A DNA stretch of 64,000 bases from a virus, in IMG/VR virus record IMGVR_UViG_3300036886_000043, positions 33,231 to 97,230 of that record. The stretch is one strand, 5' to 3'. The notes beneath the pieces are model-generated. The model searched no databases. It had not been told where the DNA came from and was given only the letters and a program-made list of their open reading frames with translations. Made by a program: the position numbers and the translations under genes. Below, in pieces: positions 4,233 to 17,425 of this stretch. The stretch's first letter is position 1, and each line of letters opens with the position of its first letter.

Positions 4233-4750
4233 TGCACCCCTCGGCGCTGAAGAGCGGAAAGCAGTTTTTCGAGAAGTACGCCATCCGCGGCTCTATCGTG
4301 GAGATCGGAAGTTGCGTGGTCGGTGGGGGGAGCCTTCGGGATGTTTCTCCCGCCGGCTGTAAATATCTTGGCTTGGATATATGTGAAGGCCCTGGGGTAG
4401 ACGTGGCGATGCCAGACCCGTACAGCTTTCCTATTCTTGACGGCTGTGCGGATTGTGTGGTTTGCTCCTCGGTTTTTGAGCATGTTGAGTTCTTTTGGCT
4501 GACCTTCTTGGAAATGGTCAGGGTCGTTAAAGTCGGGGGATTGATCTACGCGAACGCCCCAAGTAACGGCATAGTTCACGGTTACCCTGTAGACTGTTGG
4601 AGGTTTTACCCTGATGCTGGACAGGCTTTGGCAAAATGGGCATTGAGGAGTGGTCTTCCGGTCGAAGTGGTGGAAACGTGGATAGGTCCGCCCGACGGGG
4701 CAGATTCCGCAAGGTGGGAAGACTGGGTGTGCGTGTGGAGGAAACTGTGA
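4232..4750 (+). CDS. SAM-dependent methyltransferase (Methyltransf_11-like)
   Basis: Residues about 20-32 (GSIVEIGSCVVGG) are the SAM-binding loop, GLDICEG the acidic post-motif, and CVVCSSVFEHVEFFWLTFLEM with VVKVGGLIYANAPS the typical post-III region of class I enzymes. The 172-residue length is short but complete. ATG overlaps the previous TAA (TAATG). Third methyltransferase in a row; probably acts on the glycan made by the cluster. Confidence 0.7.
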   Translation: MHPSALKSGKQFFEKYAIRGSIVEIGSCVVGGGSLRDVSPAGCKYLGLDICEGPGVDVAMPDPYSFPILDGCADCVVCSSVFEHVEFFWLTFLEMVRVVKVGGLIYANAPSNGIVHGYPVDCWRFYPDAGQALAKWALRSGLPVEVVETWIGPPDGADSARWEDWVCVWRKL

Positions 4751-8017: not shown

Positions 8018-11000
8018 ATGCCGGACGCTGTTTACAAAGAGTACCCTCTCATCTTCCAAAGCAAGGGAATCTTCGCCCGCCAGGTCGATGACCTTGTGGA
8101 CCCGCAAGGGCTTTTGAATGAGGATAATGTTGAGGAGTTGGCAGAAGGCGCTTATGCTCAAAAATTGGGCAGTGTCCTCGTAAACGCCCAGGGGACCATC
8201 GGCCAGCCGGTCTACCCGTTATCGGGGAAAGTGGTCAGCCTATCCAAATTAGGCCAGTTGGCGGGGGCATACGCAAGATATGCGGTTACGGCAGACGGGG
8301 CTCTCTGGCGCAGATCGTTGCTTTCGGCGGGGCAGTTCACAAAGATTTCTACATCCTTCAGCGGGAGCCCTTGCTCGATTCAGTCTTACTGCAACACGGA
8401 TTTTACCTCAGTATCGACGGAATTTTTTGCAGACGCCGCAGGGATGTTCAAGGACGACGGAACCTTTGCGGCTCCACAGCAGATGGGCATCTTCCAGCCC
8501 CAGTTTCCAGTGCAGGCGCAGGCGCAGCCGCCCTCATCCGTGATACTTGACAACTATGTGACCTCGGCGGGGAGCTATTCATACACCGGGATCTCTGGAG
8601 GAACCAACGCAGGATACGTGAATACGACGATCCCTGCTGGAGTTCCCGCCGCAGGGCTTCAATCGGTAACGGTGGTCGATCCTACGCAGCCGGGCCTATT
8701 CCAGCTTTTGACTGTTGACTCAGGCGGAAATGCGGAGACGGTCCTTGTCCTCTTAGTGACTCCCACGGGGTTTGTGGCGAACTTCACAAAGATTCACTCA
8801 AGTGGAGTCACGGTCACGAGCGCAGACCTCTCGGTTTCGGTTCCTGCAAGCACTACGGCAACAATAAGTGCCTCATTCGGCATCCTTCCATGTGGGGCTA
8901 AACCGATACTTGTGAACTGGCCCGTTACAAACCAGCCACTACAGCAAGCGGACTACCTTGGCTTGTATCTTTTTGTCAGTGATCCAACCCAGATACAGAG
9001 CATCACGCTCAAGCTCGATTGCGGGGATGGTTCATTCGATAGTGATTATTTCTACAAGGTCATTGCTCAAGGTCCACTCCAAAATTTGGTATCTTCGGCA
9101 ACCTCTTCAACAGACCCAACAACTGCATTGACGGACGCGCTCCTGTCAGACAGCCTCAATCTCTACGGCAACCAAGCCGGAGGGATCGGTGAACTGAATA
9201 CCGGGCTCGACAACTGGACACCGCTCCTCTTTCAACTCTCCGACTTTGCCGGCTCAGGCCGTGCGGACTTCAACGATCCGGTCTACAACTGGGCCAACGT
9301 CAACGGCTACCAGATTCAGATTGTCACCAACGACAACACGAGCGTGACGGTCAATCTTGCGGCCCTGGTGCTCTTTGGCGGAGCCGGTCCAGATACGCTC
9401 GGAGGCGTAGCTTACGACTACGTGTGGACGTTTTTCAATCCGGTGGATGGAACAGAGTCAAACCCGTCAATGATTGTGACGAACCAGAACCCGCCGAATC
9501 AGACGAACCGGGTCTATCCGCGGCGCCAGCCGGTGTTGTTGAACATGGACGTTACCACTTACGGACCATTAGGGCAGTTGCAAGACGGTCAGATCGGGTA
9601 TCTGAGAATCTACAGGCGAGGTGGAACACTCGGGGACAACTTCCGAAGGGTAGATCAAATTCCGGTCAACATAGCGGCCGGGGGAATCGTCCAGTACATC
9701 GACACAGCGCCGGACTACCTAGTAGCCGGAGCAGATATTGTCTCGTTTACCAACGATGTTCCGGTCCCGAGCCTACTCCCGGTCCCGGTCAACACGACAT
9801 TGATGACTCCGATCTATACAGAAAATCAGGTGACGAACGTCTTCCCTGTGTCGATGGCAAACATCTCTGTGCGCCAGCAGGTAACAATCGGAAGTCCTAC
9901 TGCAATAGCAAACAACTTTGAAACCGTAATTGTTCTAACCCTCGACGAAGCAAGTTTTACTGCGTTTGTGCAAAACGCTCATGCGGCTGGAGAGCCGGTA
10001 CAGGCAAGCTATCAGGTAGGCCAGCCGGTTTATGGAATGGTCATAGCCTTCAACAAGGCATGGTATTGGGGAGATCCGAATAACCCGTCTACCCTCTACT
10101 TCAGCACCGGAAATGCTCCGCAGTACGTGGGAGAGGCGAACAACGTCATTGTCTCCACCCCGGACGACTACATCACAACAGTTAAGCCTTACAAGGGAAA
10201 CATCTTCGTCAGTTGCGTCAAAAGCGGGTGGTGGATGATTCCTCCGGGCTCTCCTGCCAGCCAGCCGCCGTATCCTACGGCCTGCGTACATGGCTGCGTG
10301 GCTCCGTTCGGGGCCGTGGCGACAGAGGAAATGATTCTCTATCAGGCGGCGGACGGAATACGCGCTTTCGCTGGAGGGGCATCGGAGTATATGAGTCTCC
10401 CGATTGAATTCATTTTTCAAGGCGTGGGTTCTACTCCGATTGTCGAAGCGGATCAAACGAAGTTGTCTCAGACGGTGGCCGCGTATTGGAACTCGATGGT
10501 ATTTTTCAGCTACATCGGGACGGATGGGAACCGGCATCGAGTGATTGCCCACGCTCAATACAAGAGGTTCAGGAATGACGACGTGGACGCTCAATGCCTC
10601 TTGCTTGAGGCCGACACGAATCAGTTGCTCTATGGAGACTCAAACGGACTGGTTCACATCGACCGTCAGAACCTTCCCTATGACCAGGTAAACAGCGGCG
10701 GTGTGCTGGCCGCGGGACCGATTGCGATCAATTTGCAAACAGCCTATAGCTTCCAAGGAAGCCCCGCGAACCAGAAACAGTATCAGGCCGTTCAGATCGA
10801 CTGCAACACAGGGGGCCAAACGCTCAACGTCAACCTTCTCTTCAATGATGGAGAGATCACAGTCGCGCTCGGAACGATCAGCAATGCACAGCGCGGCAAG
10901 ATCAATCTGCCAGTGAACTTAGGGTTGGGCCAACAGGCGTATAAGATTTCGCTTCAGATCACCGGCAACGTGTCTGCCTTCGCGTACCTCTATCAAGCCG

Positions 11001-11359
11001 CAGTTGAGGCTCTGGTGCTGCCGAGGACGCGGAAAACCGTAGATACCTACGACCTGAATTGCGGATTTGCAGACTCGAAATACTGCAAGGATTTTTGGGC
11101 ACAGTACACGGCTACGGCTCCGATCAACGTGCAAGTGTATTATGACGACAACGCAACCCCAGGGTTCACTTTCACGATGCCTCAAGCCGGAGGCGTCAGG
11201 AACCCTCTTAGGGTAAGATTACCGGCAGTCTCATTCAGGACGATCCGCGTGGTAGCGGAATCGACAGGGGACTTTCTCTGGTGGCCCGATACCTGTCTTT
11301 GGGTCAAGCCCCAGTGCGCTTCGAGGGGCTATGAGAAGGTGTTGATTGTTGAGAACTAA
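8018..11359 (+). CDS. Large virion structural protein, 1113 aa
   Basis: Long, Gly/Ser/Thr/Gln-rich protein built of many short beta segments, without signal peptide or membrane helices. The stretch KPYKGNIFVSCVKSGWWMIP, then CVHGCVAPFGAVATEEMILYQAADGIRAFAGG, resembles beta-propeller-like regions of podovirus tail-hub or DNA-stabilisation proteins (P22 gp10 type). That relation is only suggestive. The N-terminal 70 residues (KGIFARQVDDLVDPQGLLNEDNVEEL) may form the attachment part. Start ATG 8018 has no ribosome-binding site and probably lies at the transcription start. A palindrome copy lies inside the coding sequence. Confidence 0.55.
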   Translation: MPDAVYKEYPLIFQSKGIFARQVDDLVDPQGLLNEDNVEELAEGAYAQKLGSVLVNAQGTIGQPVYPLSGKVVSLSKLGQLAGAYARYAVTADGALWRRSLLSAGQFTKISTSFSGSPCSIQSYCNTDFTSVSTEFFADAAGMFKDDGTFAAPQQMGIFQPQFPVQAQAQPPSSVILDNYVTSAGSYSYTGISGGTNAGYVNTTIPAGVPAAGLQSVTVVDPTQPGLFQLLTVDSGGNAETVLVLLVTPTGFVANFTKIHSSGVTVTSADLSVSVPASTTATISASFGILPCGAKPILVNWPVTNQPLQQADYLGLYLFVSDPTQIQSITLKLDCGDGSFDSDYFYKVIAQGPLQNLVSSATSSTDPTTALTDALLSDSLNLYGNQAGGIGELNTGLDNWTPLLFQLSDFAGSGRADFNDPVYNWANVNGYQIQIVTNDNTSVTVNLAALVLFGGAGPDTLGGVAYDYVWTFFNPVDGTESNPSMIVTNQNPPNQTNRVYPRRQPVLLNMDVTTYGPLGQLQDGQIGYLRIYRRGGTLGDNFRRVDQIPVNIAAGGIVQYIDTAPDYLVAGADIVSFTNDVPVPSLLPVPVNTTLMTPIYTENQVTNVFPVSMANISVRQQVTIGSPTAIANNFETVIVLTLDEASFTAFVQNAHAAGEPVQASYQVGQPVYGMVIAFNKAWYWGDPNNPSTLYFSTGNAPQYVGEANNVIVSTPDDYITTVKPYKGNIFVSCVKSGWWMIPPGSPASQPPYPTACVHGCVAPFGAVATEEMILYQAADGIRAFAGGASEYMSLPIEFIFQGVGSTPIVEADQTKLSQTVAAYWNSMVFFSYIGTDGNRHRVIAHAQYKRFRNDDVDAQCLLLEADTNQLLYGDSNGLVHIDRQNLPYDQVNSGGVLAAGPIAINLQTAYSFQGSPANQKQYQAVQIDCNTGGQTLNVNLLFNDGEITVALGTISNAQRGKINLPVNLGLGQQAYKISLQITGNVSAFAYLYQAAVEALVLPRTRKTVDTYDLNCGFADSKYCKDFWAQYTATAPINVQVYYDDNATPGFTFTMPQAGGVRNPLRVRLPAVSFRTIRVVAESTGDFLWWPDTCLWVKPQCASRGYEKVLIVEN
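9077..9091 (+). repeat. Dispersed palindrome copy inside a gene
   Basis: CTCCAAAATTTGGTA; the central CCAAAATTTGG is intact but the outer arms are degraded. Inside the 8018-11359 coding sequence. Confidence 0.5.
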
Positions 11360-11385
11360 GGTGTATGCTGTATCTGAGGTGATTT

Positions 11386-11553
11386 ATGCTCAACATCATT
11401 TTGGTAATTCTGATGTTTCTGTGCGGATTTGGCGGATATGCGATCCCAGTTACGCAGCCGGCCGGTTTCCGGTATGGCGTCGGTCTTCTCGGCGCTGTGC
11501 TTTTTATCTTGTTTTGCCTCATCAACCTTGGCCTGATTCACCCAGGGCTATAA
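11386..11553 (+). CDS. Small membrane protein, 55 aa
   Basis: Two hydrophobic segments (LNIILVILMFLCGFGGYA and VGLLGAVLFILFCLINLGL) joined by a polar PVTQPAGFRYG loop. GAGGTG precedes the ATG. The layout, two helices around a Gly/Tyr loop, is like the next gene and like DUF3309-type small membrane proteins. It may help envelope permeabilisation, but no lysis function can be shown. Confidence 0.6.
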   Translation: MLNIILVILMFLCGFGGYAIPVTQPAGFRYGVGLLGAVLFILFCLINLGLIHPGL

Positions 11554-11556
11554 GCG

Positions 11557-11721
11557 ATGATTATCTTGCTCATCATTGTTCTAGTTCTGCTCTTTGGCGG
11601 CGGCTTCGGTTACTACGGCCACACTCAATGGGGCGCGAATAACGTCTATGCAGGGCCGGGAATCGGCCTTGGAACCATCCTGATTATCCTGCTGATTCTG
11701 TTCCTGCTCGGCGTCATTTGA
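11557..11721 (+). CDS. DUF3309-like small membrane protein, 54 aa
   Basis: A first hydrophobic helix (IILLIIVLVLLFGGG), a short polar loop with GYYGHTQWGAN, then GPGIGLGTILIILLILFLLG. This hydrophobic-loop-hydrophobic pattern with GxGLGxILxILLILxLLG is that of DUF3309 proteins. Follows the previous gene by 3 bases, so the two are probably a duplicated pair. Confidence 0.65.
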   Translation: MIILLIIVLVLLFGGGFGYYGHTQWGANNVYAGPGIGLGTILIILLILFLLGVI

Positions 11722-11816
11722 GTCGTGTCCGCATGTGCATGTAGGACAGTGTTTAGTCGTTCCCGCTCTGTGGAAATCTCTCCGGTTGTCGAGAAGGGGT
11801 TACTATTCAGGTAGCC
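11722..11816 (+). other. Short gap before the first tRNA leader cassette
   Basis: No convincing gene is seen between the small membrane protein and the leader promoter at 11817. A 7-bp inverted repeat (AAATCAT/ATGATTT) lies just downstream, inside the promoter spacer and -10 region. Confidence 0.4.
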
Positions 11817-11845
11817 TTGACGCAAATCATTTTCCGTGCGATGAT
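11817..11845 (+). promoter_or_regulatory. Promoter of tRNA block A leader
   Basis: TTGACG (11817-11822), 17-bp spacer, GATGAT (11840-11845). The leader ATG at 11852 is 6 bases beyond the -10, so transcription should start at or next to the A of the ATG. Confidence 0.65.
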
Positions 11846-11851
11846 TTTGAT

Positions 11852-11923
11852 ATGAGATTTGACCGCAACAGTTTATGCCTCTCCTATTCACTCCTGTCGA
11901 GTGACGGGGAGGCTGCGGTCTGA
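11852..11923 (+). CDS. Leader peptide of tRNA block A, 23 codons
   Basis: Short ORF that appears leaderless. It has 4 Leu, 5 Ser, 2 Asp, 1 Cys, 1 Tyr and 1 Glu codons. Downstream in block A lie tRNA-Leu(TAA, CAA, TAG), Cys, Ser(GCT, TGA), Tyr, fMet, Asp and Glu(TTC, CTC). Specific matching codons are tta, tgc, ctg, agt, tca, tat, atg (the start), gac and gag; ttg and gaa are absent, giving 9 of 11. Its last codons form one strand of an antiterminator, and an intrinsic terminator follows. Interpreted as an attenuation leader that reports tRNA availability. Confidence 0.7.
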   Translation: MRFDRNSLCLSYSLLSSDGEAAV

Positions 11924-11957
11924 TTCCAAAGTTTGGAATTTCAGCGAAGCGGCCTCC
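11908..11957 (+). promoter_or_regulatory. Antiterminator hairpin, block A
   Basis: GGAGGCTGC (11908-11916, in the last leader codons) can pair over 9 bp, with one G-U, with GCGGCCTCC (11949-11957). The 3' strand is the 5' arm of the terminator, so the two structures exclude each other. A ribosome at the stop codon (11921-11923) would cover the 5' strand and favour termination. The dispersed palindrome hairpin lies in the loop. Confidence 0.6.
11924..11938 (+). repeat. Dispersed palindrome, perfect copy
   Basis: TTCCAAA-G-TTTGGAA, perfect 7-1-7 arms (8 bp each side counting the flanking A/T). It starts right after the stop codon of the block A leader and lies inside the antiterminator loop. 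Confidence 0.85.
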
Positions 11958-11974
11958 AGAAATGGAGGCTTTTT
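11952..11974 (+). terminator. Intrinsic terminator, block A attenuator
   Basis: GCCTCCA-GAAA-TGGAGGC followed by TTTTT: a 7-bp stem with a GAAA tetraloop. It lies 5 bp before the first tRNA gene, so transcription must read through it to make block A. Confidence 0.85.
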
Positions 11975-11979
11975 GTTGT

Positions 11980-12063
11980 GCGGGATTGGCGAAACGGCAG
12001 CCGCGCCCGATTTAAGATCGGGTGTCTTAGGACGTGGGAGTTCAAGTCTCCCATCCCGCACCA
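11980..12063 (+). tRNA. tRNA-Leu(TAA)
   Basis: Acceptor GCGGGAT/ATCCCGC, A73, encoded CCA, long variable arm as in Leu tRNAs, anticodon loop TTTAAGA. First gene of block A, directly after the attenuator terminator. Confidence 0.92.
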
Positions 12064-12064
12064 T

Positions 12065-12141
12065 GTATCGGAAGGTAAAGTTTTGGAACCAGTGGTCCGC
12101 AAAACCACTTTTAGCCGGTGGGACTCCGGCCCGGTACTCCA
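12065..12141 (+). tRNA. tRNA-Cys(GCA), C33
   Basis: Acceptor GTATCGG/CCGGTAC, T73 as expected for Cys, CCA encoded. Anticodon arm GTGGT-CCGCAAA-ACCAC gives anticodon GCA but C rather than U at position 33. Confidence 0.85.
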
Positions 12142-12153
12142 AAGTTTAGTAGT

Positions 12154-12232
12154 GCTCGCGTAGCCCAATTTGGCAGGAGGCACTTCATTCAAAACGAAGA
12201 CAGTGCTGGTTCAAATCCAGCCGCGAGTACCA
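12154..12232 (+). tRNA. tRNA-Leu(CAA)
   Basis: Acceptor GCTCGCG/CGCGAGT with a G1-U72 wobble, A73, CCA. Anticodon arm CTTCA-TTCAAAA-CGAAG (A31-C39 mismatch) gives CAA. Variable region is short, unusual for a Leu tRNA; body closely resembles the next gene. Confidence 0.75.
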
Positions 12233-12240
12233 AAATATGT

Positions 12241-12319
12241 GCCCCGTTAGCCCAATTGGCAGGAGGCGTCTGACTTAGGATCAGAACAGTGATGAGTTCG
12301 AATCTCTCACGGGGTACCA
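12241..12319 (+). tRNA. tRNA-Leu(TAG)
   Basis: Acceptor GCCCCGT/ACGGGGT with G1-U72 wobble, A73, CCA. Anticodon arm TCTGA-CTTAGGA-TCAGA. T stem has mismatches and the variable region is short. Likely duplicated from or with the preceding gene. Confidence 0.75.
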
Positions 12320-12328
12320 AAATTTAGA

Positions 12329-12357
12329 TTGCAACGGGTACCAATCTACTGTAAAAT
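12329..12357 (+). promoter_or_regulatory. Promoter of HNH gene within the tRNA array
   Basis: TTGCAA (12329-12334), 17-bp spacer, TAAAAT (12352-12357), then 6 bases to the ATG at 12364. No Shine-Dalgarno is present, so the mRNA is predicted leaderless. Confidence 0.65.
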
Positions 12358-12363
12358 ATTGGT

Positions 12364-12963
12364 ATGAATGGTGATTCGAGTATTTGCAATGGATGTGGTT
12401 TAAGTGAGCCAGAAGTGAGATTTCGATTGCGGAAGGCGAACGGGAAAACTTACAGAAAACACTTGTGTACAAAATGTGATGATGAATATCAAAAGAAGTA
12501 CACTAAACCTCAAGGCGTAAAAGATAGGAATAGAAAATCGTATCTGAAAAGAAAGGAGAGAAGAGCACGGGGAGAAATAGTCGAGATTTTCCTTCTTGAG
12601 GACTGTCGAAGAATTGACAGAAAAAAAGGTATCAAATCCGATTTAGACTCTGAATATATTGCGGAGATAATAAAGGATGGATGCGCGTATTGCGGAGATA
12701 TAGAATCACGCATTGGGCTTGATCGGATAGATAATTCACTGGGCCACATGAAGGGAAATGTTAACGCCTGTTGTATGAGATGTAATCTTATTCGTAGGGA
12801 TATGCCATACGAAGCATGGCTGATTGTAGCGCCCACGATGAAGATTGCGAGAGAATCAAAAGCGTTTGGGAATTGGAATGTGCTTTTTGGAAACAAGAAG
12901 AAAACGGAGCGCGGGCCGGACGATAAGGCAACGGGTTGCTACCCCGCACAGCCGCAAGGCTGA
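12364..12963 (+). CDS. HNH homing-type endonuclease inside the tRNA array
   Basis: Residues about 9-38 hold a CNGC...CTKC zinc site. Residues about 100-140 hold a CAYCGD...GLDRIDNSLGHMKGNVNACCMRCN segment, the usual zinc-ribbon HNH core of intron-free homing endonucleases. Such genes often invade tRNA clusters. The last 58 bases, including the stop codon, lie inside tRNA-Ser(GCT). Base composition is clearly more A+T-rich than the surroundings, suggesting recent arrival. It carries its own promoter. Confidence 0.85.
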   Translation: MNGDSSICNGCGLSEPEVRFRLRKANGKTYRKHLCTKCDDEYQKKYTKPQGVKDRNRKSYLKRKERRARGEIVEIFLLEDCRRIDRKKGIKSDLDSEYIAEIIKDGCAYCGDIESRIGLDRIDNSLGHMKGNVNACCMRCNLIRRDMPYEAWLIVAPTMKIARESKAFGNWNVLFGNKKKTERGPDDKATGCYPAQPQG

Positions 12964-12991
12964 CTGAGTTTGACTCTCAGGCGCTCCGCCA
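12906..12991 (+). tRNA. tRNA-Ser(GCT)
   Basis: Acceptor GGAGCGC/GCGCTCC, G73, CCA, long variable arm (AGCC-GCAA-GGCT). Anticodon loop TTGCTAC. Its 5' 58 bases double as the 3' end of the HNH gene. Confidence 0.9.
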
Positions 12992-12995
12992 GTTC

Positions 12996-13080
12996 GGAAG
13001 GTACCGCTGAAAGGTCGGCAAACGGTCCTGAAAACCGTGGCTCCTTCGGGATGGGCGTTCGATTCGTCTACCTTCCGCCA
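12996..13080 (+). tRNA. tRNA-Ser(TGA), C33
   Basis: Acceptor GGAAGGT/ACCTTCC, G73, CCA, long variable arm (CTCCTTCGGGATGG region). Anticodon arm ACGGT-CCTGAAA-ACCGT: anticodon TGA, C at position 33. Confidence 0.88.
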
Positions 13081-13085
13081 AGTTT

Positions 13086-13172
13086 GGGAGTGATGCTCTG
13101 TAGGGAGAGCAGCAGGCCGTAACCCTGCCGTCACTTGTGGCATAGGGGGTTCGATTCCCTCCACTCCCACCA
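13086..13172 (+). tRNA. tRNA-Tyr(GTA), C33
   Basis: Acceptor GGGAGTG/CACTCCC, A73, CCA, long variable arm as in bacterial Tyr tRNAs. Anticodon arm GCAGG-CCGTAAC-CCTGC: anticodon GTA, C33. Confidence 0.88.
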
Positions 13173-13175
13173 TAC

Positions 13176-13204
13176 TTGTCAACACGGAAGAGTAGTGGTA
13201 TACT
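13176..13204 (+). promoter_or_regulatory. Promoter of the initiator tRNA sub-block
   Basis: TTGTCA (13176-13181), 17-bp spacer, TATACT (13199-13204). The expected start (about 13211) coincides with the 5' end of the initiator tRNA at 13210, so the primary transcript would need almost no 5' trimming. Confidence 0.7.
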
Positions 13205-13209
13205 GAAAT

Positions 13210-13284
13210 CGCGGGTTGGTAGCGCAGCGTCATACGTCAGGCTCATACCCTGAAGATCCGGTGCAAATCCGGTACCCGCAACCA
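13210..13284 (+). tRNA. Initiator tRNA-fMet(CAT)
   Basis: Position 1 C faces A72, the unpaired end that marks bacterial initiator tRNAs. The 3' end reads GCAACCA as in E. coli fMet, and the anticodon loop is CTCATAC. The anticodon stem TCAGG/CCTGA has two rather than three of the usual G-C pairs next to the loop. Own promoter directly upstream. Confidence 0.85.
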
Positions 13285-13285
13285 A

Positions 13286-13361
13286 GGTCACGTCGTCTAA
13301 CTGGAAGGATACTTCCCTGTCTAGGAAGCTGGCGCGGGTTCGATTCCCGTCGTGATCGCCA
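13286..13361 (+). tRNA. tRNA-Asp(GTC)
   Basis: Acceptor GGTCACG/CGTGATC, G73, CCA. Anticodon arm CTTCC-CTGTCTA-GGAAG. Confidence 0.9.
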
Positions 13362-13367
13362 AGTTTA

Positions 13368-13446
13368 GCCGATGCACTCTGTACTGGATTCGGAGCACTC
13401 CCCTTCAAGGAGTTGGATGCGAGTTCGATTCTCGTCGTCGGCGCCA
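13368..13446 (+). tRNA. tRNA-Glu(TTC), C33
   Basis: Acceptor GCCGATG/CGTCGGC, G73, CCA. Anticodon arm ACTCC-CCTTCAA-GGAGT gives TTC with C33. Confidence 0.85.
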
Positions 13447-13454
13447 AGTTTTAC

Positions 13455-13531
13455 GGGGTCACCGTCTAATTGGTCTGGACGCCAGATTCTCAATCTGGAA
13501 ACTGTGAGTTCGATCCTCACTGGCCCTACCA
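13455..13531 (+). tRNA. tRNA-Glu(CTC)
   Basis: Acceptor GGGGTCA/TGGCCCT with G1-U72 wobble, A73 (Glu usually has G73), CCA. Anticodon arm CCAGA-TTCTCAA-TCTGG. Last gene of block A. Confidence 0.85.
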
Positions 13532-13540
13532 GAAAATGAT

Positions 13541-13569
13541 TTGACAGAAATTGCGAACGGCGGTACAGT
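13541..13569 (+). promoter_or_regulatory. Promoter of tRNA block B leader
   Basis: TTGACA (13541-13546), 17-bp spacer, TACAGT (13564-13569). The leader ATG at 13580 is 10 bases beyond the -10, leaving a 5' untranslated part of only a few bases. Confidence 0.75.
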
Positions 13570-13579
13570 AGAAAACGAG

Positions 13580-13648
13580 ATGAAAAACCGAGTCAATCAC
13601 GGATTTACACCAGCGACGGCGCAACCGACGCAGGGTAATCCTATGTAG
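13580..13648 (+). CDS. Leader peptide of tRNA block B, 22 codons
   Basis: Codons include aac/aat, cag, caa, ggt, acg, aca, cac, gcg, ttt, ccg, cca/cct and cga. Block B downstream encodes exactly tRNA-Asn(GTT), Gln(CTG), Gln(TTG), Gly(GCC), Thr(CGT), Thr(TGT), His(GTG), Ala(TGC), Phe(GAA), Pro(CGG), Pro(TGG) and Arg(ACG), so every downstream anticodon is sampled at least once. Codons outside this set are aaa, gtc, gga and atg. Shares an HG-aromatic/aliphatic-T motif with the block C leader. An antiterminator and a terminator follow. Best read as an attenuation leader. Confidence 0.8.
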   Translation: MKNRVNHGFTPATAQPTQGNPM

Positions 13649-13649
13649 C

Positions 13650-13685
13650 GGCTCGTGGAGTTTGAAGCAAAGCGCCCACCGAGCC
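13650..13685 (+). promoter_or_regulatory. Antiterminator hairpin, block B
   Basis: GGCTCGTGG (13650-13658), starting 2 bp after the leader stop codon, pairs with CCACCGAGCC (13676-13685) with one bulged C. The 3' strand contains the 5' arm of the terminator (13675-13681), so the two folds exclude each other. A ribosome at the stop codon would mask the 5' strand. Confidence 0.65.
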
Positions 13686-13705
13686 AATCAGCCGGTGGGT
13701 TTTTT
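13675..13705 (+). terminator. Intrinsic terminator, block B attenuator
   Basis: CCCACCG / CGGTGGG with an 11-base loop, followed by six T. It lies 8 bp before tRNA-Asn. Confidence 0.88.
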
Positions 13706-13713
13706 GTTGATGT

Positions 13714-13789
13714 TCCAGCGTAGCAAAAAGGTAATGCGCCGCACTGTTAATGCGGAAATGTGCAGGTTCGAGTCCTGCCGCTGGAGCCA
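13714..13789 (+). tRNA. tRNA-Asn(GTT)
   Basis: Acceptor TCCAGCG/CGCTGGA, G73, CCA. Anticodon arm CCGCA-CTGTTAA-TGCGG. First tRNA after the block B attenuator; the leader has three Asn codons. Confidence 0.92.
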
Positions 13790-13798
13790 GTTTGAAGT

Positions 13799-13873
13799 TG
13801 CCCGTTCGTTCATGTGGCAGGACGGCTGACTCTGGATCAGCGGAGCGAGGTTCAAGTCCTCGACGGGCAGCCA
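13799..13873 (+). tRNA. tRNA-Gln(CTG)
   Basis: Acceptor TGCCCGT/ACGGGCA (U1-A72 as usual for Gln), G73, CCA. Anticodon arm GCTGA-CTCTGGA-TCAGC. Confidence 0.92.
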
Positions 13874-13881
13874 AGTTTTAC

Positions 13882-13957
13882 AGGGAGATGGCCGAGCGGC
13901 TTAGGCGACAGCCTTTGGAACTGTCTCAGGTAGGTTCGACTCCTACTCTCCCTGCCA
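13882..13957 (+). tRNA. tRNA-Gln(TTG)
   Basis: Acceptor AGGGAGA/TCTCCCT, G73, CCA. Anticodon arm ACAGC-CTTTGGA-ACTGT with a C31-A39 mismatch; anticodon TTG. Confidence 0.82.
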
Positions 13958-13958
13958 T

Positions 13959-14034
13959 GCGGACGTAGCTCAATTGGTAGAGCACAGCGTTGCCAATGCT
14001 GAGGTTGCCGGATCGTTGCCGGTCGTTCGCTCCA
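13959..14034 (+). tRNA. tRNA-Gly(GCC)
   Basis: Acceptor GCGGACG/CGTTCGC, T73 as in Gly tRNAs, CCA. Anticodon arm CAGCG-TTGCCAA-TGCTG. Its 3' end forms the left arm of a perfect palindrome copy (14030-14044). Confidence 0.9.
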
Positions 14035-14044
14035 AATTTTGGAG
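14030..14044 (+). repeat. Dispersed palindrome copy at a tRNA 3' end
   Basis: CTCCAAA-T-TTTGGAG, perfect 7-1-7 palindrome. The left arm is the CCA end of tRNA-Gly; the right arm gives the GGAGGT ribosome-binding site of the ORF at 14051. Confidence 0.7.
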
Positions 14045-14050
14045 GTTGAC

Positions 14051-14212
14051 ATGCCGCACAGGTATCATTTCAATGCCGATCTCCGAGAAGTGTACAGAAG
14101 GCTGGCGGGACAATTTCGAGCACCGTTAGTTGAGTCGGCACAACACGACACTCGTAACGTCGAGGCTCCGGTTCGAGGCCGGGACGGTGCTCCAGAATTG
14201 GAAGGTGAGTGA
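14051..14212 (+). CDS. Small ORF (53 aa) containing a complete tRNA gene
   Basis: ATG 14051 has a strong GGAGGT 6 bases upstream, and the stop overlaps the next ATG (TGATG), so it looks translated and coupled to the HNH gene. Yet its second half is tRNA-Thr(CGT) read in frame. The N-terminal 25 residues (PHRYHFNADLREVYRRLAGQF) could be an independent helical peptide. Either the tRNA inserted into a small gene or the ORF is fortuitous. Confidence 0.4.
   Translation: MPHRYHFNADLREVYRRLAGQFRAPLVESAQHDTRNVEAPVRGRDGAPELEGE
14120..14194 (+). tRNA. tRNA-Thr(CGT)
   Basis: Acceptor GCACCGT/ACGGTGC, T73, CCA. Anticodon arm CGACA-CTCGTAA-CGTCG with A31-C39 mismatch. Nested inside the ORF 14051-14212. 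Confidence 0.85.
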
Positions 14213-14748
14213 TGAATTTGATGCGGAAGCCGGTATTGCAGTTGAATGCAAGCTACGAGCCGCTTCGCATCATCGCGGCAAGAAGGGCATTGACGCTCAT
14301 AACCAAGGGCGTAGCCGTGGTGGAAGTGCCAACCAGCACAGTAGTCTATCCTGGCATCTACTTGCCCTCAGTGATTCGGTTGCGGACTTACCGGCATGTG
14401 CCTATTAGGATGCAGGTGATGAGCCGCAAGAACATTCTCCTTCGGGATGGCGGCCGCTGCATGTATTGCGGACAGAGGTCAAACGAATTGACGCTTGACC
14501 ATGTGATTCCGCGTTCCCGTGGCGGATTGAATACGTGGGACAATCTTGTGGCTTGCTGCAAACGCGACAATCACAAGAAGAACGACAGGACTCCAGAGGA
14601 AGCGGGAATGAACTTGATTCACAGGCCGCTTCCGCAAACGATCCACACGCCGCGGTTTGTTCTACGGTCTATGGGTTTGGAAGTAAATGAGTGGAGCCCG
14701 TACTTGTGGGCCGACTCCGAAGGCGACAAGAAGTATGCGTTTAACTGA
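14212..14748 (+). CDS. HNH endonuclease (McrA-like family)
   Basis: CMYCGQRSNELTLDHVIPRS, then RGGLNTWDNLVACC and KRDNHKK is a classic zinc-containing HNH nuclease core at about residues 84-125. The N-terminal PVLQLNASYEPLRIIAARRAL is the usual start of this widespread 170-190 aa bacterial/phage group. AAGGTG precedes ATG 14212. It sits exactly between tRNA-Thr(CGT) and tRNA-Thr(TGT): its stop codon ends the base before the next tRNA starts. Confidence 0.88.
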   Translation: MNLMRKPVLQLNASYEPLRIIAARRALTLITKGVAVVEVPTSTVVYPGIYLPSVIRLRTYRHVPIRMQVMSRKNILLRDGGRCMYCGQRSNELTLDHVIPRSRGGLNTWDNLVACCKRDNHKKNDRTPEEAGMNLIHRPLPQTIHTPRFVLRSMGLEVNEWSPYLWADSEGDKKYAFN

Positions 14749-14820
14749 GCCGGGTGAACATCGAATGTTGCGGGCGCTTGTATCGCTTGCTAGTGGGTTC
14801 GACTCCCACATCCGGCCCCA
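14749..14820 (+). tRNA. tRNA-Thr(TGT)
   Basis: Acceptor GCCGGGT/ATCCGGC, C73 (atypical), CCA. Anticodon arm GGGCG-CTTGTAT-CGCTT with two G-U pairs. Starts directly at the end of the HNH gene. The aca codon in the block B leader supports the anticodon call. Confidence 0.72.
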
Positions 14821-14830
14821 ACAAGTTCAT

Positions 14831-14905
14831 GGGGAATATCGTTCAGCGATAGGACGCTAAGTTGTGGCCTTAGTCACCGCAGTTTGATTCTGCGTATTCC
14901 CCCCA
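14831..14905 (+). tRNA. tRNA-His(GTG)
   Basis: An extra G at -1 pairs with C73, the identity mark of His tRNA, outside acceptor GGGAATA/TATTCCC. CCA encoded. Anticodon arm CTAAG-TTGTGGC-CTTAG. Confidence 0.92.
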
Positions 14906-14918
14906 AGTTTTAAGTAGT

Positions 14919-14993
14919 GGGCGTGTGGTGCTAATGGGAACACATCCGGCCTGCACCCGGAAGTTGAGAGTTCGATTCTCTCCATGTCCACCA
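14919..14993 (+). tRNA. tRNA-Ala(TGC), C33
   Basis: Acceptor GGGCGTG/CATGTCC includes the G3-U70 wobble that defines Ala tRNA; A73, CCA. Anticodon arm TCCGG-CCTGCAC-CCGGA, C33. Confidence 0.9.
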
Positions 14994-14999
14994 AGTTTT

Positions 15000-15075
15000 G
15001 CCGACTTAGCTGATGAGGTCATAGCGGTCGCCTGAAGAGCGATAGAAGCCCGCTCGATACGGGCAGTCGGCACCA
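15000..15075 (+). tRNA. tRNA-Phe(GAA)
   Basis: Acceptor GCCGACT/AGTCGGC, A73, CCA. Anticodon arm GTCGC-CTGAAGA-GCGAT. Confidence 0.92.
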
Positions 15076-15076
15076 T

Positions 15077-15154
15077 CGGTGTGTAGCGTAGTCTGCTTAA
15101 CGCGCTCCGTTCGGGACGGAGAGATCGCAGGTCGAAATCCTGCCACGCCGACCA
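15077..15154 (+). tRNA. tRNA-Pro(CGG)
   Basis: Acceptor CGGTGTG/CACGCCG (C1-G72 as in Pro), A73, CCA. Anticodon arm CTCCG-TTCGGGA-CGGAG. Confidence 0.9.
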
Positions 15155-15160
15155 GTTTAC

Positions 15161-15234
15161 CGGGGTGTAGTGTAAAGGAAACATCCGTGGCCTGGGACCA
15201 CGTGTTGGGCTTTCGAGATGCCCCACCCCGACCA
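15161..15234 (+). tRNA. tRNA-Pro(TGG), C33
   Basis: Acceptor CGGGGTG/CACCCCG, A73, CCA. Anticodon arm CGTGG-CCTGGGA-CCACG, C33. T stem has a mismatch next to the loop. Confidence 0.85.
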
Positions 15235-15240
15235 ATTTAC

Positions 15241-15315
15241 GGCCCGTTCGTTCAATGGACAGGACTTCGGATTACGAATCCGACAATCAGAGTTCGACTC
15301 TCTGGCGGGCTACCA
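15241..15315 (+). tRNA. tRNA-Arg(ACG)
   Basis: Acceptor GGCCCGT/GCGGGCT with G1-U72 wobble, A73, CCA. Anticodon arm TCGGA-TTACGAA-TCCGA; A34 would need host TadA to become inosine. Last gene of block B. Confidence 0.87.
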
Positions 15316-15316
15316 C

Positions 15317-15345
15317 TTGCAAGAAAAGAAAAGTTGATGTACAGT
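15317..15345 (+). promoter_or_regulatory. Promoter of tRNA block C leader
   Basis: TTGCAA (15317-15322), 17-bp spacer, TACAGT (15340-15345). The leader ATG at 15353 is 7 bases beyond the -10, predicting a leaderless transcript. Confidence 0.72.
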
Positions 15346-15352
15346 GGAATTC

Positions 15353-15421
15353 ATGCAGATCAGGACCAAACACGGAATAACCAGAATGACCAAGCGGGTC
15401 ATTTGGGGGATCGTGTGTTGA
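15353..15421 (+). CDS. Leader peptide of tRNA block C, 22 codons
   Basis: Codons include tgg, atg, ata, aag, aaa, aga, agg, cgg, gtg, acc, atc/att and gga/ggg. Block C downstream encodes tRNA-Trp(CCA), Met(CAT), Ile(TAT), Lys(CTT), Lys(TTT), Arg(TCT), Arg(CCT), Arg(CCG), Val(TAC), Thr(GGT), Ile(GAT) and Gly(TCC): all 12 anticodons are sampled, including the rare ata, aga and agg. Other codons are cag, cac, gtc and tgt. Same architecture and an HG-I-T motif as the block B leader. Attenuation leader. Confidence 0.82.
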   Translation: MQIRTKHGITRMTKRVIWGIVC

Positions 15422-15422
15422 G

Positions 15423-15450
15423 GGTCTGAGCATTTTGGTACGCACAGACC
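15423..15450 (+). promoter_or_regulatory. Antiterminator hairpin, block C
   Basis: GGTCTG (15423-15428), starting 2 bp after the leader stop, pairs with CAGACC (15445-15450). The last three bases are also the 5' base of the terminator stem. A second alternative, CTGAGC (15426-15431) with GCTCAG (15454-15459), would invade the terminator more deeply. Confidence 0.55.
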
Positions 15451-15472
15451 TTCGCTCAGGCGAGGGTTTTTT
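15448..15472 (+). terminator. Intrinsic terminator, block C attenuator
   Basis: ACCTTCGC-TCAG-GCGAGGGT stem of 8 bp (one G-U) running into six T. Located 16 bp before tRNA-Trp. Confidence 0.85.
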
Positions 15473-15488
15473 ATTGCTCTTTGAAAAT

Positions 15489-15563
15489 AGGGGAGTGCTG
15501 GCGGCACAGCGGTTGGTCTCCAAAACCAACGTCACGGCGGTTCGAGTCCGCTCTCCCCTGCCA
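15489..15563 (+). tRNA. tRNA-Trp(CCA)
   Basis: Acceptor AGGGGAG/CTCCCCT, G73, CCA. Anticodon arm TTGGT-CTCCAAA-ACCAA. First gene after the block C attenuator, whose leader contains the only Trp codon of the three leaders. Confidence 0.93.
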
Positions 15564-15568
15564 TTTTT

Positions 15569-15637
15569 GGCACGTACCCAAGGCGGGAAGCGATCCTCAT
15601 AAGATCGTAAACTGGTTCGAGTCCAGGCGTGCTACCA
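15569..15637 (+). tRNA. tRNA-Met(CAT), elongator
   Basis: Acceptor GGCACGT/GCGTGCT with G1-U72 wobble, A73, CCA. Anticodon arm CGATC-CTCATAA-GATCG. Short D arm (69 nt in total). Because Ile(TAT) is encoded next door, Met is preferred over a lysidine-type Ile. Confidence 0.8.
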
Positions 15638-15642
15638 GTTTT

Positions 15643-15736
15643 GGGCGATAGCACCGGCCGTGCGGCGGAGTCTTATAAACTCTGGAGAGCGCCAGATTAG
15701 CGCAACGGGAAGGATCGACACCTTCATCGCCTACCA
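15643..15736 (+). tRNA. tRNA-Ile(TAT), irregular architecture
   Basis: Acceptor GGGCGAT/ATCGCCT with G1-U72 wobble, A73, CCA. Anticodon arm GGAGT-CTTATAA-ACTCT. About 24 bases with a D-loop-like TTAGCGCAACGGGAAGG stretch lie between the anticodon arm and the T arm, and the T loop begins ATCGACA. At 94 nt it is longer than a normal Ile tRNA. The ata codon in the block C leader supports the anticodon. Confidence 0.6.
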
Positions 15737-15739
15737 TGT

Positions 15740-15814
15740 GGGTCGCAGATGTTTTTGGCGGCATACCCGGCTCTTACCCGGAATGGCGGGGTTCGACTCC
15801 CCGGCGACCCACCA
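15740..15814 (+). tRNA. tRNA-Lys(CTT)
   Basis: Acceptor GGGTCGC/GCGACCC, A73, CCA. Anticodon arm CCCGG-CTCTTAC-CCGGA with a 27-43 mismatch. Confidence 0.82.
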
Positions 15815-15823
15815 TCTGTTTTC

Positions 15824-15897
15824 GGACTGCGAGTGTGATGGTGCATAACGCCCTTTTAAGGCGTTTGGATAGAGTTCGATTCTCTAGCGGTCCACCA
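15824..15897 (+). tRNA. tRNA-Lys(TTT)
   Basis: Acceptor GGACTGC/GCGGTCC, A73, CCA. Anticodon arm ACGCC-CTTTTAA-GGCGT. Confidence 0.9.
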
Positions 15898-15898
15898 T

Positions 15899-15973
15899 GG
15901 CCCTATAGCTCAAGGGGATAGAGTGCGGTCTTCTAAGCCGTCGATCACCGTTCGACTCGGTGTAGGGCTCCCA
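15899..15973 (+). tRNA. tRNA-Arg(TCT)
   Basis: Acceptor GGCCCTA/TAGGGCT with G1-U72 wobble, C73, CCA. Anticodon arm GCGGT-CTTCTAA-GCCGT. Confidence 0.82.
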
Positions 15974-15978
15974 GTTTT

Positions 15979-16055
15979 GCCGCTGTATCTCTCCGGTTTC
16001 CTAAACCGGCAAGAGTAGTTGGATGACGCCGGTTCGACTCCGGCCAGCGGCCCCA
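15979..16055 (+). tRNA. tRNA-Arg(CCT), D arm displaced
   Basis: Acceptor GCCGCTG/CAGCGGC, C73, CCA; T arm GCCGG-TTCGACT-CCGGC. The anticodon arm CCGGT-TTCCTAA-ACCGG begins only 7 bases after the acceptor stem, and an 18-base stretch with TAGTTGGAT, normally D-loop sequence, follows it. CTCT/AGAG pairing extends the anticodon stem. Total 77 nt, as for a normal tRNA. The agg codon in the block C leader supports the anticodon. Confidence 0.65.
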
Positions 16056-16060
16056 GGTTT

Positions 16061-16138
16061 GCTGCCGTATTCGGTTCTGGTTCCGAACCAGAGGGCCGTA
16101 GATGGAGAAGGCAGGTTCGAGTCCTGTCGGCAGCGCCA
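16061..16138 (+). tRNA. tRNA-Arg(CCG), D arm displaced
   Basis: Acceptor GCTGCCG/CGGCAGC, G73, CCA; T arm GCAGG-TTCGAGT-CCTGT. Anticodon arm TCTGG-TTCCGAA-CCAGA starts 8 bases after the acceptor stem, followed by 18 bases including TAGATGGAGA. Same unusual order as the gene before it. The cgg codon in the block C leader supports the anticodon. Confidence 0.65.
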
Positions 16139-16143
16139 GTTTA

Positions 16144-16219
16144 GCCGGGTTCGCCCAAAGGCTTAGGGCCGATGGTCTACACCCATCTGATAGGGGTTCG
16201 AGTCCTCTACCCGGCACCA
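16144..16219 (+). tRNA. tRNA-Val(TAC), C33
   Basis: Acceptor GCCGGGT/ACCCGGC, A73, CCA. Anticodon arm GATGG-TCTACAC-CCATC gives TAC with C33. Confidence 0.88.
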
Positions 16220-16224
16220 AGATT

Positions 16225-16298
16225 GTCGATGTAGCTCAGTGGTAGAGCACCGCAATGGTAATGCGGCGACGAGGGTCCGATTCCCTCCTTCGGCTCCA
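16225..16298 (+). tRNA. tRNA-Thr(GGT)
   Basis: Acceptor GTCGATG/CTTCGGC (one mismatch, one G-U), T73, CCA. Anticodon arm CCGCA-ATGGTAA-TGCGG. The leader carries three acc codons. Confidence 0.85.
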
Positions 16299-16302
16299 TT
16301 TT

Positions 16303-16377
16303 GCCGATGTAGCTCAATGGCAGAGCATTCGCTTGATAAGCGAAAGGTCAGTGGATCAGTACCACTCATCGGCACCA
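16303..16377 (+). tRNA. tRNA-Ile(GAT)
   Basis: Acceptor GCCGATG/CATCGGC, A73, CCA. Anticodon arm TTCGC-TTGATAA-GCGAA. T loop starts with A rather than T (ATCAGTA). Confidence 0.88.
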
Positions 16378-16383
16378 AGTTGA

Positions 16384-16458
16384 GCGGGATTAGCCAAGTG
16401 GAAAGGCAATGGGCTTCCAACCCATTATGCGTCGGTTCAACCCCGACATCCCGCTCCA
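16384..16458 (+). tRNA. tRNA-Gly(TCC)
   Basis: Acceptor GCGGGAT/ATCCCGC, T73, CCA. Anticodon arm ATGGG-CTTCCAA-CCCAT. Last tRNA of the array. Confidence 0.92.
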
Positions 16459-16477
16459 CTTTTCTGCCAACAAGCGT

Positions 16478-16483
16478 TATACT
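16478..16483 (+). promoter_or_regulatory. -10 box 6 bp before an ATG
   Basis: TATACT at 16478-16483, then ACTTTC, then ATG 16490. No Shine-Dalgarno and no clear -35. Predicted leaderless start for the fibre-like gene. Confidence 0.5.
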
Positions 16484-16489
16484 ACTTTC

Positions 16490-17425
16490 ATGCCGAAGTC
16501 GCCCAAACTCGGAAAGATTACATTCTCCTCTTTGTCTCTTCCAGAGCAAATCCAGATGAGCAACTTGCAGGATGCCGTGAACATCCTCGGCGGTCATTCG
16601 GGGGAAGTCGAGTTAAGCAATCATCTAAACCTCGGCGGGAACAAAATAACGAACGTGGCGGCGCCGGCCGCGGATAGCGATGTGTTGACGAGCGGAGCGG
16701 CAGAAACAAAGTATTCCGCGGCGGCTTTACGTCCGCAGCTTGAGTCGAGCGGGACGCATCCATTCGTAGGCTACAGACAAGTCAATAATCAAGGACAGCG
16801 CGAAAAAACCTCAAGCTGGCTCAACGAGCTTCTCTCTACCCCTCCGAACTCCAACAACATCAATCCCATCGTCAGTTCTTCGGGAGGCTCAACGAGCGTC
16901 ACGATCCCGGCCAGCATCTTGCAGATGGGGGATGGAACCACGCGATACCTTCCTTCGCGGACGGACACGTTGACCAACCCGGCAAGCTACTCCATTACCT
17001 CGTTTACGATTGCTTTGGGAGTGGCAACGGTGGTTTTGTCCTCGACTCCATCGCCGGCTTTGGCTGCGCCTACGGTGGTGTACATTTCAGGGACGAGTGA
17101 GATTGACGGGACGTTCCCGATTGCAAGCATTGTCAGCCCGACGACGTTCACGATCAACGTAAGCAGTGGGGTGTCTGGCACTGGAGGGACGGTAGAGACG
17201 GGAGGAATCTGCTACTATTACCTCAACAAGTCATTCCAGAAGGTGATGCTATCCGTCCTTCCGTCATCTTCAGACACCCCGTTTAGGCGTCTCGGAATTT
17301 CTGGAGACGGATACCAGTTGCTTGCGGTTGTCAGCATCAATTCGAGCGGAACTGTCCAAGTGGGGACGGCCGGAGGGGGAACGCCGAGCGTCGTTAGCAC
17401 AGCCAATGCAGGAAGCAGGTTCTAA
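16490..17425 (+). CDS. Tail fibre or baseplate-associated protein, 311 aa
   Basis: Residues about 36-75 (ELSNHLNLGGNKITNVAAPA followed by ADSDVLTSGAAETKYSAAAL) match the repeat seen at the start of many tail-fibre proteins, where 'NKITNVxxPxADxDA' links the fibre to the tail. The rest is Ser/Thr/Gly-rich beta structure. ATG 16490 lies 6 bases beyond a TATACT box. Separated from the other fibre genes by 30 kb. Confidence 0.6.
   Translation: MPKSPKLGKITFSSLSLPEQIQMSNLQDAVNILGGHSGEVELSNHLNLGGNKITNVAAPAADSDVLTSGAAETKYSAAALRPQLESSGTHPFVGYRQVNNQGQREKTSSWLNELLSTPPNSNNINPIVSSSGGSTSVTIPASILQMGDGTTRYLPSRTDTLTNPASYSITSFTIALGVATVVLSSTPSPALAAPTVVYISGTSEIDGTFPIASIVSPTTFTINVSSGVSGTGGTVETGGICYYYLNKSFQKVMLSVLPSSSDTPFRRLGISGDGYQLLAVVSINSSGTVQVGTAGGGTPSVVSTANAGSRF

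Follow-up and report, generated by a model that had tools for sequence, protein, structure and literature searches.

Attenuators of the trp, his and ilv operons of enterobacteria are composed of a promoter, a short leader open reading frame (ORF) with regulatory codons, a competing antiterminator and terminator, and the regulated genes. T-box riboswitches measure the state of a tRNA and control a terminator. RNA repair enzymes of the PNK/ligase kind mend cut tRNAs, as established for T4. Why phages carry tRNA arrays, and how these are controlled, has been debated for decades. We analyzed the tRNA array of a 97 kb virus record (IMGVR_UViG_3300036886_000043), in a stretch of 64,000 nucleotides (bases 33231-97230 of the record) that is called the window below. 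The array consists of three blocks of tRNA genes, each preceded by a short ORF whose codons correspond to the tRNAs of that block. Very probably each of these units is a ribosome-mediated transcription attenuator that regulates the tRNA genes it measures, which is a known mechanism in a new form and use.

The phage units have the same parts in the same order as the trp, his and ilv attenuators. They differ in that they regulate tRNA genes, that a peptide samples 2 to 20 amino acids, that several units share out the tRNAs, and that the predicted transcription start often lies at most 4 bases from the start codon. Like T-box riboswitches, the phage leaders would measure tRNA state and control a terminator, whereas a T-box RNA binds one tRNA, without translation. 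Repair systems of the T4 PNK/Rnl1 and RtcB types, found at the same locus in two relatives of this phage (L003 and L005), mend cut tRNA and, unlike the leaders and arrays, bring no new supply. To our knowledge these leaders would be the first attenuators with tRNA as the product and with single peptides that sample as many as all 20 amino acids. Phage tRNA arrays that evade immunity resemble the proposed system in that attacked host tRNAs are replaced by the phage; the accessible parts of these reports describe a strong promoter or changes in the anticodon loop (PMC11555353, PMC10264068). Our search of the accessible parts of the open-access literature, with subscription journals mostly outside it, found no account of phage tRNA genes controlled by leader peptides, and the terms "leader" and "attenuat" are absent from the accessible text of PMC3556154, PMC10264068, PMC11555353 and PMC10865867 and from PMC13015707.

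Leader units and their codons

At the head of every block, on the + strand, stand a sigma-70-like site, a 22-23 codon ORF and a strong hairpin carrying a T-run. Promoter A (TTGACG-17-GATGAT, 11817-11845; consensus match only, 9/12) precedes leader A (11852-11923, 23 codons and a stop, MRFDRNSLCLSYSLLSSDGEAAV), which samples Leu, Ser, Tyr and Cys and has homologues of kept composition in two relatives, L001 and L005. The 5' arm of terminator A (11949-11976) is able, by reading, to pair with the end of the ORF as an antiterminator. Promoter B (TTGACA-17-TACAGT, 13541-13569; 10/12) contains 23 bases, TTGACAGAAATTGCGAACGGCGG, found again exactly in L009, which is the contig of L005. It is followed by leader B (13580-13648, 22 codons and a stop, MKNRVNHGFTPATAQPTQGNPM), which samples Asn, Gln, Gly, Thr, His, Ala, Phe, Pro and Arg, and by terminator B (13675-13706), with a competing antiterminator half read at about 13649-13660. 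Promoter C (TTGCAA-17-TACAGT, 15317-15345) matches the consensus at 8/12, under the scan threshold; leader C (15353-15421, 22 codons and a stop, MQIRTKHGITRMTKRVIWGIVC) samples Trp, Met, Ile, Lys, Arg, Val, Thr and Gly, and an antiterminator half (15422-15431) and terminator C (arms 15447-15455 and 15460-15468) occupy 15422-15472. Terminators A and C were detected by the terminator scan, terminator B by folding only. The scan counts are not above those of shuffles (promoters, 6 vs 4.4±1.9; terminators, 5 vs 6.4±2.3). With the predicted transcription start set 7 bases past the -10 box, ORFs A, B and C begin 0, 4 and 1 bases from it (for A it is the A of the ATG), and it lies at most 4 bases from the start codon in 8 of the 13 leaders examined. 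A reading made from the sequence only had described the order promoter, ORF, terminator and tRNA block as occurring three times, with the ORFs at or near the transcription start. Both descriptions hold: each short ORF lies behind a predicted promoter and before a predicted intrinsic terminator and the regulated genes.

The array comprises 35 tRNA genes clustered on a virus record, as in other phage tRNA arrays. ARAGORN, proposed by the sequence-only reading for confirming the anticodons, called 28 of them by default and three more with relaxed settings (Ser-GCT, Ser-TGA and Met-CAT); the other four (Cys-GCA, Thr-TGT, Arg-CCT and Arg-CCG) have no ARAGORN call and were recognized by eye or via homologous places in L001 and L005. 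On the + strand, block A1 (11980-13172) contains Leu-TAA, Cys-GCA (by homology), Leu-CAA, Leu-TAG, Ser-GCT, Ser-TGA and Tyr-GTA. A leaderless promoter (TTGTCA-17-TATACT, 13176-13204) follows for tRNA-fMet (relaxed ARAGORN; initiator identity from a C1:A72 mismatch, by eye), which is grouped with Asp-GTC, Glu-TTC and Glu-CTC (13210-13531). Block B (13714-15315) contains Asn, Gln-CTG, Gln-TTG, Gly-GCC, Thr-CGT, Thr-TGT (by homology), His, Ala-TGC, Phe, Pro-CGG, Pro-TGG and Arg-ACG. Block C (15489-16458) contains Trp, Met-CAT, Ile-TAT, Lys-CTT, Lys-TTT, Arg-TCT, Arg-CCT and Arg-CCG (both by eye), Val-TAC, Thr-GGT, Ile-GAT and Gly-TCC. The three blocks cover all 20 amino acids, if the Cys called by homology is included. 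Genes of the HNH/endonuclease VII-like and NUMOD3 kinds lie between array tRNA genes, both in the window (an endonuclease VII/HNH-like ORF inside block A1, 12364-12963; an HNH ORF inside block B, 14209-14748) and in a relative (L005:16073-17477).

Coverage was counted as the tRNAs with a cognate codon in the leader, under ordinary wobble, the start codon and fMet being excluded. With all calls, leaders A, B and C cover 9/10, 12/12 and 12/12 tRNAs of their own blocks, i.e. 33 of the 34 elongator tRNAs, versus 14/68 in the other two blocks (leader A, 4/12 of B and 2/12 of C; leader B, 0/10 of A and 4/12 of C; leader C, 1/10 of A and 3/12 of B). Expected coverage under phage codon usage is 4.4, 6.1 and 5.2 (p = 0.0039, 0.0003 and 0.00006 for A, B and C), and among 9869 overlapping 21-codon coding stretches of the window only 18, 12 and 3 reach the observed values. 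The match therefore exceeds that of random ORFs, a comparison on which the sequence-only reading had staked its proposal. The 12/12 that it had claimed for blocks B and C was found again, and default ARAGORN calls alone give 11/11 (p=3e-4) and 10/10 (p=6e-4). As in known attenuators, the regulatory codons are related to the regulated genes; those of leader C include ATA, AGA, AGG and CGG. In a blind scan of 44 candidate ORFs, leader C ranked first, and leader B shared second place with an extended version of C; leader A was not in the best 6.

For block A, 9 of 11 had been claimed. The count is 9/10 without fMet, but the Asp/Glu part of the block is probably not sampled by leader A, and the sampled part (Leu, Cys, Leu, Leu, Ser, Ser, Tyr) is covered 6/7 in the window, and 7/7 in both L001 and L005 (leader A of L005 is MRILLSSLSSYCLPLTGRGLM). 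Full Asp/Glu sampling was rejected because Asp, Glu and Glu sit behind the separate promoter with tRNA-fMet, because leader A of the relatives has no Asp or Glu codon, and because codons D18 and E20 are ineffective stall positions (arm sequestration 0.26 and 0.20 in the folding described below, i.e. a stall there should not help).

Relatives and unrelated phages

Five contigs are related to the window. The stretch of L005 carries all three blocks, with a content nearly equal to that of the window, and L001 carries block A up to the contig end; L002, L003 and L004 have one tRNA each, Met. Leader probes (up to 5 mismatches) match the window, L001 and L005, and have no match in the fetched stretches of the array-less L002, L003 and L004: the leaders are conserved where the array is present, whereas a lack of conservation had been put forward as a possible refutation. 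The composition of the peptides is kept while their order changes. Leader B of L005 is MMNRAHTGQPTTPQAFGNPV: its post-start residues are all present in the window peptide, its identity to it is 47%, and it covers 12/12 tRNAs. Leader C of L005 is little changed and also covers 12/12. Multiset overlap versus identity is 1.00 vs 0.47 for leaders B and 0.65 vs 0.35 for leaders A of the window and L005. For leaders of the unrelated phages presented below, it is 0.95 vs 0.47 (phiCbK and Colossus, unit ii), 0.81 vs 0.42 (phiCbK and Marchewka, unit ii) and 0.92 vs 0.54 (phiCbK and L085, cores of unit iii). In each of these five pairs the identity is above the mean of 300 letter shuffles but no higher than their maximum. 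tRNA-fMet has its own promoter at 5/5 loci tested (window, L001, L005, L002 and L003), in keeping with a sampling restricted to elongator tRNAs.

An RtcB RNA ligase gene (PF01139, 2e-69) lies between the last block B tRNA and leader C in L005 (L005:18236-19414), and L003 has a PNKP-type kinase-phosphatase and a T4 Rnl1-type ligase (RNA_lig_T4_1) at the array's place (L003:13575-15604). Enzymes of these kinds mend cut tRNAs, and we infer that this locus handles tRNA damage, by repair or by resupply.

Similar units exist in phages unrelated to the window. Caulobacter phage phiCbK and its kin (Dolichocephalovirinae, contig L085) have three (in phiCbK, L022:1319-1381, 2778-2915 and 4579-4677). Unit i (MTHLLTRYEREATGLDTTTA and variants) places two Glu codons and one Asp codon before tRNA-Glu and tRNA-Asp in 8/8 regions viewed, the peptide being identical in 5 of them. 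Unit ii is gp083 (45 codons), annotated as a hypothetical protein, and stands ahead of Pro, Thr, Lys, Leu, His, Ala and Ser tRNAs: 41/44 of its residues belong to its own set AHKLPST (expected 18.5, p=1.1e-12) versus 2/44 to the set of the next block, and 31/44 (p=1.1e-6) belong to the default ARAGORN set (Ala, Lys, Leu, Pro, Ser). The corresponding peptides of Colossus (35/38) and of Brevundimonas phage Marchewka (37/43) use the same seven amino acids in a different order; with ARAGORN-only sets the counts are 29/38 in Colossus (p=2.7e-6), 26/43 in Marchewka (p=0.004) and 33/44 in Rogue (p=1.3e-6). No promoter was recognisable close to the unit ii ORF in phiCbK and Marchewka (score 6). Unit iii (MSKTYRQFVRQIQVVRNIRAGRSRMADEGFRD) stands ahead of Phe, Val, Ile and Gln tRNAs and, by relaxed call or eye, Asn and Arg; 18/31 of its residues are in its own set FINQRV and 6/31 in the other set. 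In L085 unit iii is MSKTYINVQQIRVRRNFRAGLLRMADGGTEI, and Asn-GTT and Arg are called there by ARAGORN default. According to the phiCbK genome paper, terminators were predicted with TransTermHP (PMC3556154).

Virus Rctr197k, a relative of phage PaBG according to PMC7412058, has a single unit (leader, terminator, then array) before 30 tRNAs (per record). Its leader, of 51 codons after the start, contains 20/20 amino acids (null mean 16.7, p=0.012) and covers 28/30 anticodons (p=0.006). None of the 40 loci sharing its neighbour protein (L042-L081) has at least 3 tRNAs. In a 735 kb phage record (L027), a candidate leader with 41 codons behind its start covers 12/15 anticodons, with 25/41 residues in the set (p=1.3e-6, picked from 46 candidates). 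L027 belongs to a scanner survey of 12 further unrelated phage loci, a non-random pick from hit lists (L011, L021, L023, L024, L025, L026, L027, L029, L030, L039, L040 and L041; L028, with one annotated tRNA, was left out), whose p-values are best-of-many, uncorrected for 15-65 candidates per locus. A convincing unit was present in two of the twelve, L011 and L027, and in none of the other ten, so the leader unit is not a general feature; L023 has a candidate without terminator (p=0.0065). The Colossus and PW leaders (hairpin without T-run) escaped the scanner and were recognized by eye; for Magneto and Swift, the scanner put another short ORF (p=0.003) ahead of gp083. The same promoter-ORF-terminator units, which the sequence-only reading had proposed to look for elsewhere, are present in the kin of phiCbK and in Rctr197k, with a candidate in L027. 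Arrangement, codon match, kept composition and recurrence in unrelated phages can all be read in the genomes themselves, and they mainly favour the interpretation of the leaders as multi-tRNA sensors.

As regards other features, the array lies between a large ORF (8018-11359), which has no PHROGs match and belongs to no known family but is a putative tail protein, and a downstream gene. Alignments with these two proteins returned the same contigs only, and none in the genome contig collection. IMG/VR pattern searches with leader C, the palindrome behind leader A and promoter B gave no new array-bearing relative, the matches L007, L008, L010 and L013 being due to chance. This palindrome (TTCCAAA-N-TTTGGA(A), + strand) lies at window positions 1890, 7299, 11924, 18923, 25355, 37911, 40975 and 47711, and also occurs in L014, L015 and L016, often in the gap that separates a stop codon from the following start; it is possibly an operator or processing site, and was rejected as an attenuator-specific part on account of its genome-wide recurrence. 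L005:17814-17975, read by eye, has a long stretch between matching ends that resemble a tRNA acceptor stem, and it may be a tRNA containing an insertion. Further downstream, window positions 22685-34117 form one ORF of 3810 codons.

Predicted switching and its weighing

For each position of a stalled ribosome, we computed how far the 5' arm of the terminator is held by upstream RNA just before synthesis of the 3' arm. Leaders are designated winA, winB and winC (window), L1A (L001) and L5A, L5B and L5C (L005). In these seven the arm is held mostly at 0.6-1.0 over the sampled codons and at 0.16-0.61 at the stop codon, with exceptions for the first two codons of L1A (0.22, 0.38) and for early and late codons of L5C (0.56-0.58). 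The profile ends below its start or peak in 7/7, and also in Colossus, PW, CbK_iii (unit iii of phiCbK), J4, Rctr197k and L027. In Rctr197k the arm is held at 0.9 across 45 codons, and the value at the stop is 0.05. For CbK_iii and J4_iii the values are 0.8-0.9 to codon 15, then drop to 0, and stand at 0.51 and 0.28 when the stop is reached. Against dinucleotide shuffles the seven leaders give a Fisher p of 3.7e-4 (8.6e-4 without L1A; single p 0.015-0.29), with winC at 0.05, and Rctr197k and L027 give 0.008 and 0.025. These models suggest that a ribosome stalled on the sampled codons would block the terminator. The folding comparison of stalled and non-stalled ribosomes, proposed earlier, gave the right sign in most leaders; the shuffle support is moderate, and unit ii of phiCbK and of Marchewka fails. 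The sign and switching of the attenuator, as modelled by folding, would accordingly be attributed to the class and not leader by leader.

The following mechanism may be proposed. RNA polymerase would start just before the leader; in many units this point would coincide with the start codon or lie a few bases from it. A ribosome would follow the polymerase and translate a test peptide of ~20-50 codons. If all sampled tRNAs are present, the ribosome would reach the end of the ORF and cover the antiterminator half; the terminator would form and the block stay off. Should any of the sampled tRNAs be scarce, the ribosome would stall upstream, the free antiterminator half would capture the 5' arm of the terminator, and the polymerase would continue into the block holding the missing tRNA. 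The outcome would be negative feedback on tRNA supply, with separate channels per tRNA set. The initiator tRNA, which no internal codon can sample, has its own predicted leaderless promoter. We infer the transcription starts, the response to uncharged or cut tRNA, and the use against tRNA-cleaving immunity, to which a link of the leaders is plausible; a host anticodon nuclease, the example given by the sequence-only reading, may be the trigger.

Several observations weigh against this reading. Even when the ribosome has reached the stop codon, the arm remains held at 0.61 in winA, 0.47 in winB and 0.51 in CbK_iii. The shuffle p exceeds 0.05 for winA (0.29), winB (0.24), L1A (0.06), Colossus_ii (0.074), CbK_iii (0.37) and J4_iii (0.16), and CbK_ii and Marchewka_ii, with 69-74 bases from stop to terminator, have no fold contrast (p=0.64, 0.68). 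Equilibrium favours the terminator at all ribosome positions in 5/7 leaders (not in winC, nor at codons 6-9 of L5A), so that switching must rely on the order of synthesis. Leader A does not cover Leu-CAA and matches only 3/4 of block A1 with default ARAGORN calls (p=0.23), so that the case for it depends on its relatives and on Ser and Cys calls of lower certainty. In Rctr197k the leader has 3 Leu codons and 1 Tyr codon with neither tRNA in the array by ARAGORN, and the residue-in-set (p=0.43) and codons-decoded (p=0.21) measures are not significant. Several tRNAs of the phiCbK sets depend on relaxed ARAGORN or on the eye, and unit iii with default calls has only 12/31 residues in its set (p=0.08), with a coverage of 8/8 (p=0.03). 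The genome paper (PMC3556154) reports no Thr tRNA for any of its six phages, none for Arg in phiCbK and none for Ser in Rogue, whose leader ii has 9 Ser; it gives His and Asn for Colossus only. Thr-GGT is present by ARAGORN default in the records matching Karma, Rogue and BL10, and BL10 has Ser and Arg genes by relaxed ARAGORN.

Alternative explanations and meaning

The same attenuator might serve routine balancing of tRNA supply against phage codon demand, including rare host codons, and not counter-defence; we give this purpose a little less than an even chance. The feedback works without any nuclease and the same circuit would serve, leader C contains ATA, AGA, AGG and CGG, and the authors of the phiCbK genome tied phage tRNAs to codon usage (PMC3556154). 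However, the blocks span all 20 amino acids (the by-homology Cys counted), common codons too, and RNA repair genes occur inside the array of L005 (RtcB) and at its place in L003 (PNKP-type and Rnl1-type enzymes). It is improbable that the leaders are general translation sensors, opened by any slowing of ribosomes early in infection, with codon identity of minor importance: a stall anywhere in most of the ORF has an equal predicted effect, but the match specific to the own block and the composition kept under changed order would be left unexplained. Still less credible is that the ORFs encode small functional proteins, the codon match being due to chance or low complexity. In its favour, gp083 carries a protein annotation and has many A, S, T, P and L residues, and the sequences of leader C and unit i are well conserved. 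Against it, re-ordered peptides of the same make-up, between promoter and terminator and matched to separate blocks, recur in several lineages. T-boxes do control tRNA-related genes by terminator/antiterminator switches, but a T-box-like RNA binding uncharged tRNA directly is very hard to entertain and was rejected, since the consensus structure has no Rfam match in window 11000-17000 up to E 0.1.

Returning to the leaders as attenuators fed by tRNA supply, we lean slightly towards regarding multi-tRNA leader peptides as a repeatedly evolved class of regulators of large phages, long visible but unrecognised in phiCbK, which would take inventory of the tRNA pool and resupply it on demand against tRNA-destroying immunity. 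If this is true, one could read from the leaders the tRNAs whose loss a phage expects, and the counter-defence hypothesis would be directly testable in Caulobacter crescentus with phiCbK, a standard laboratory pair.

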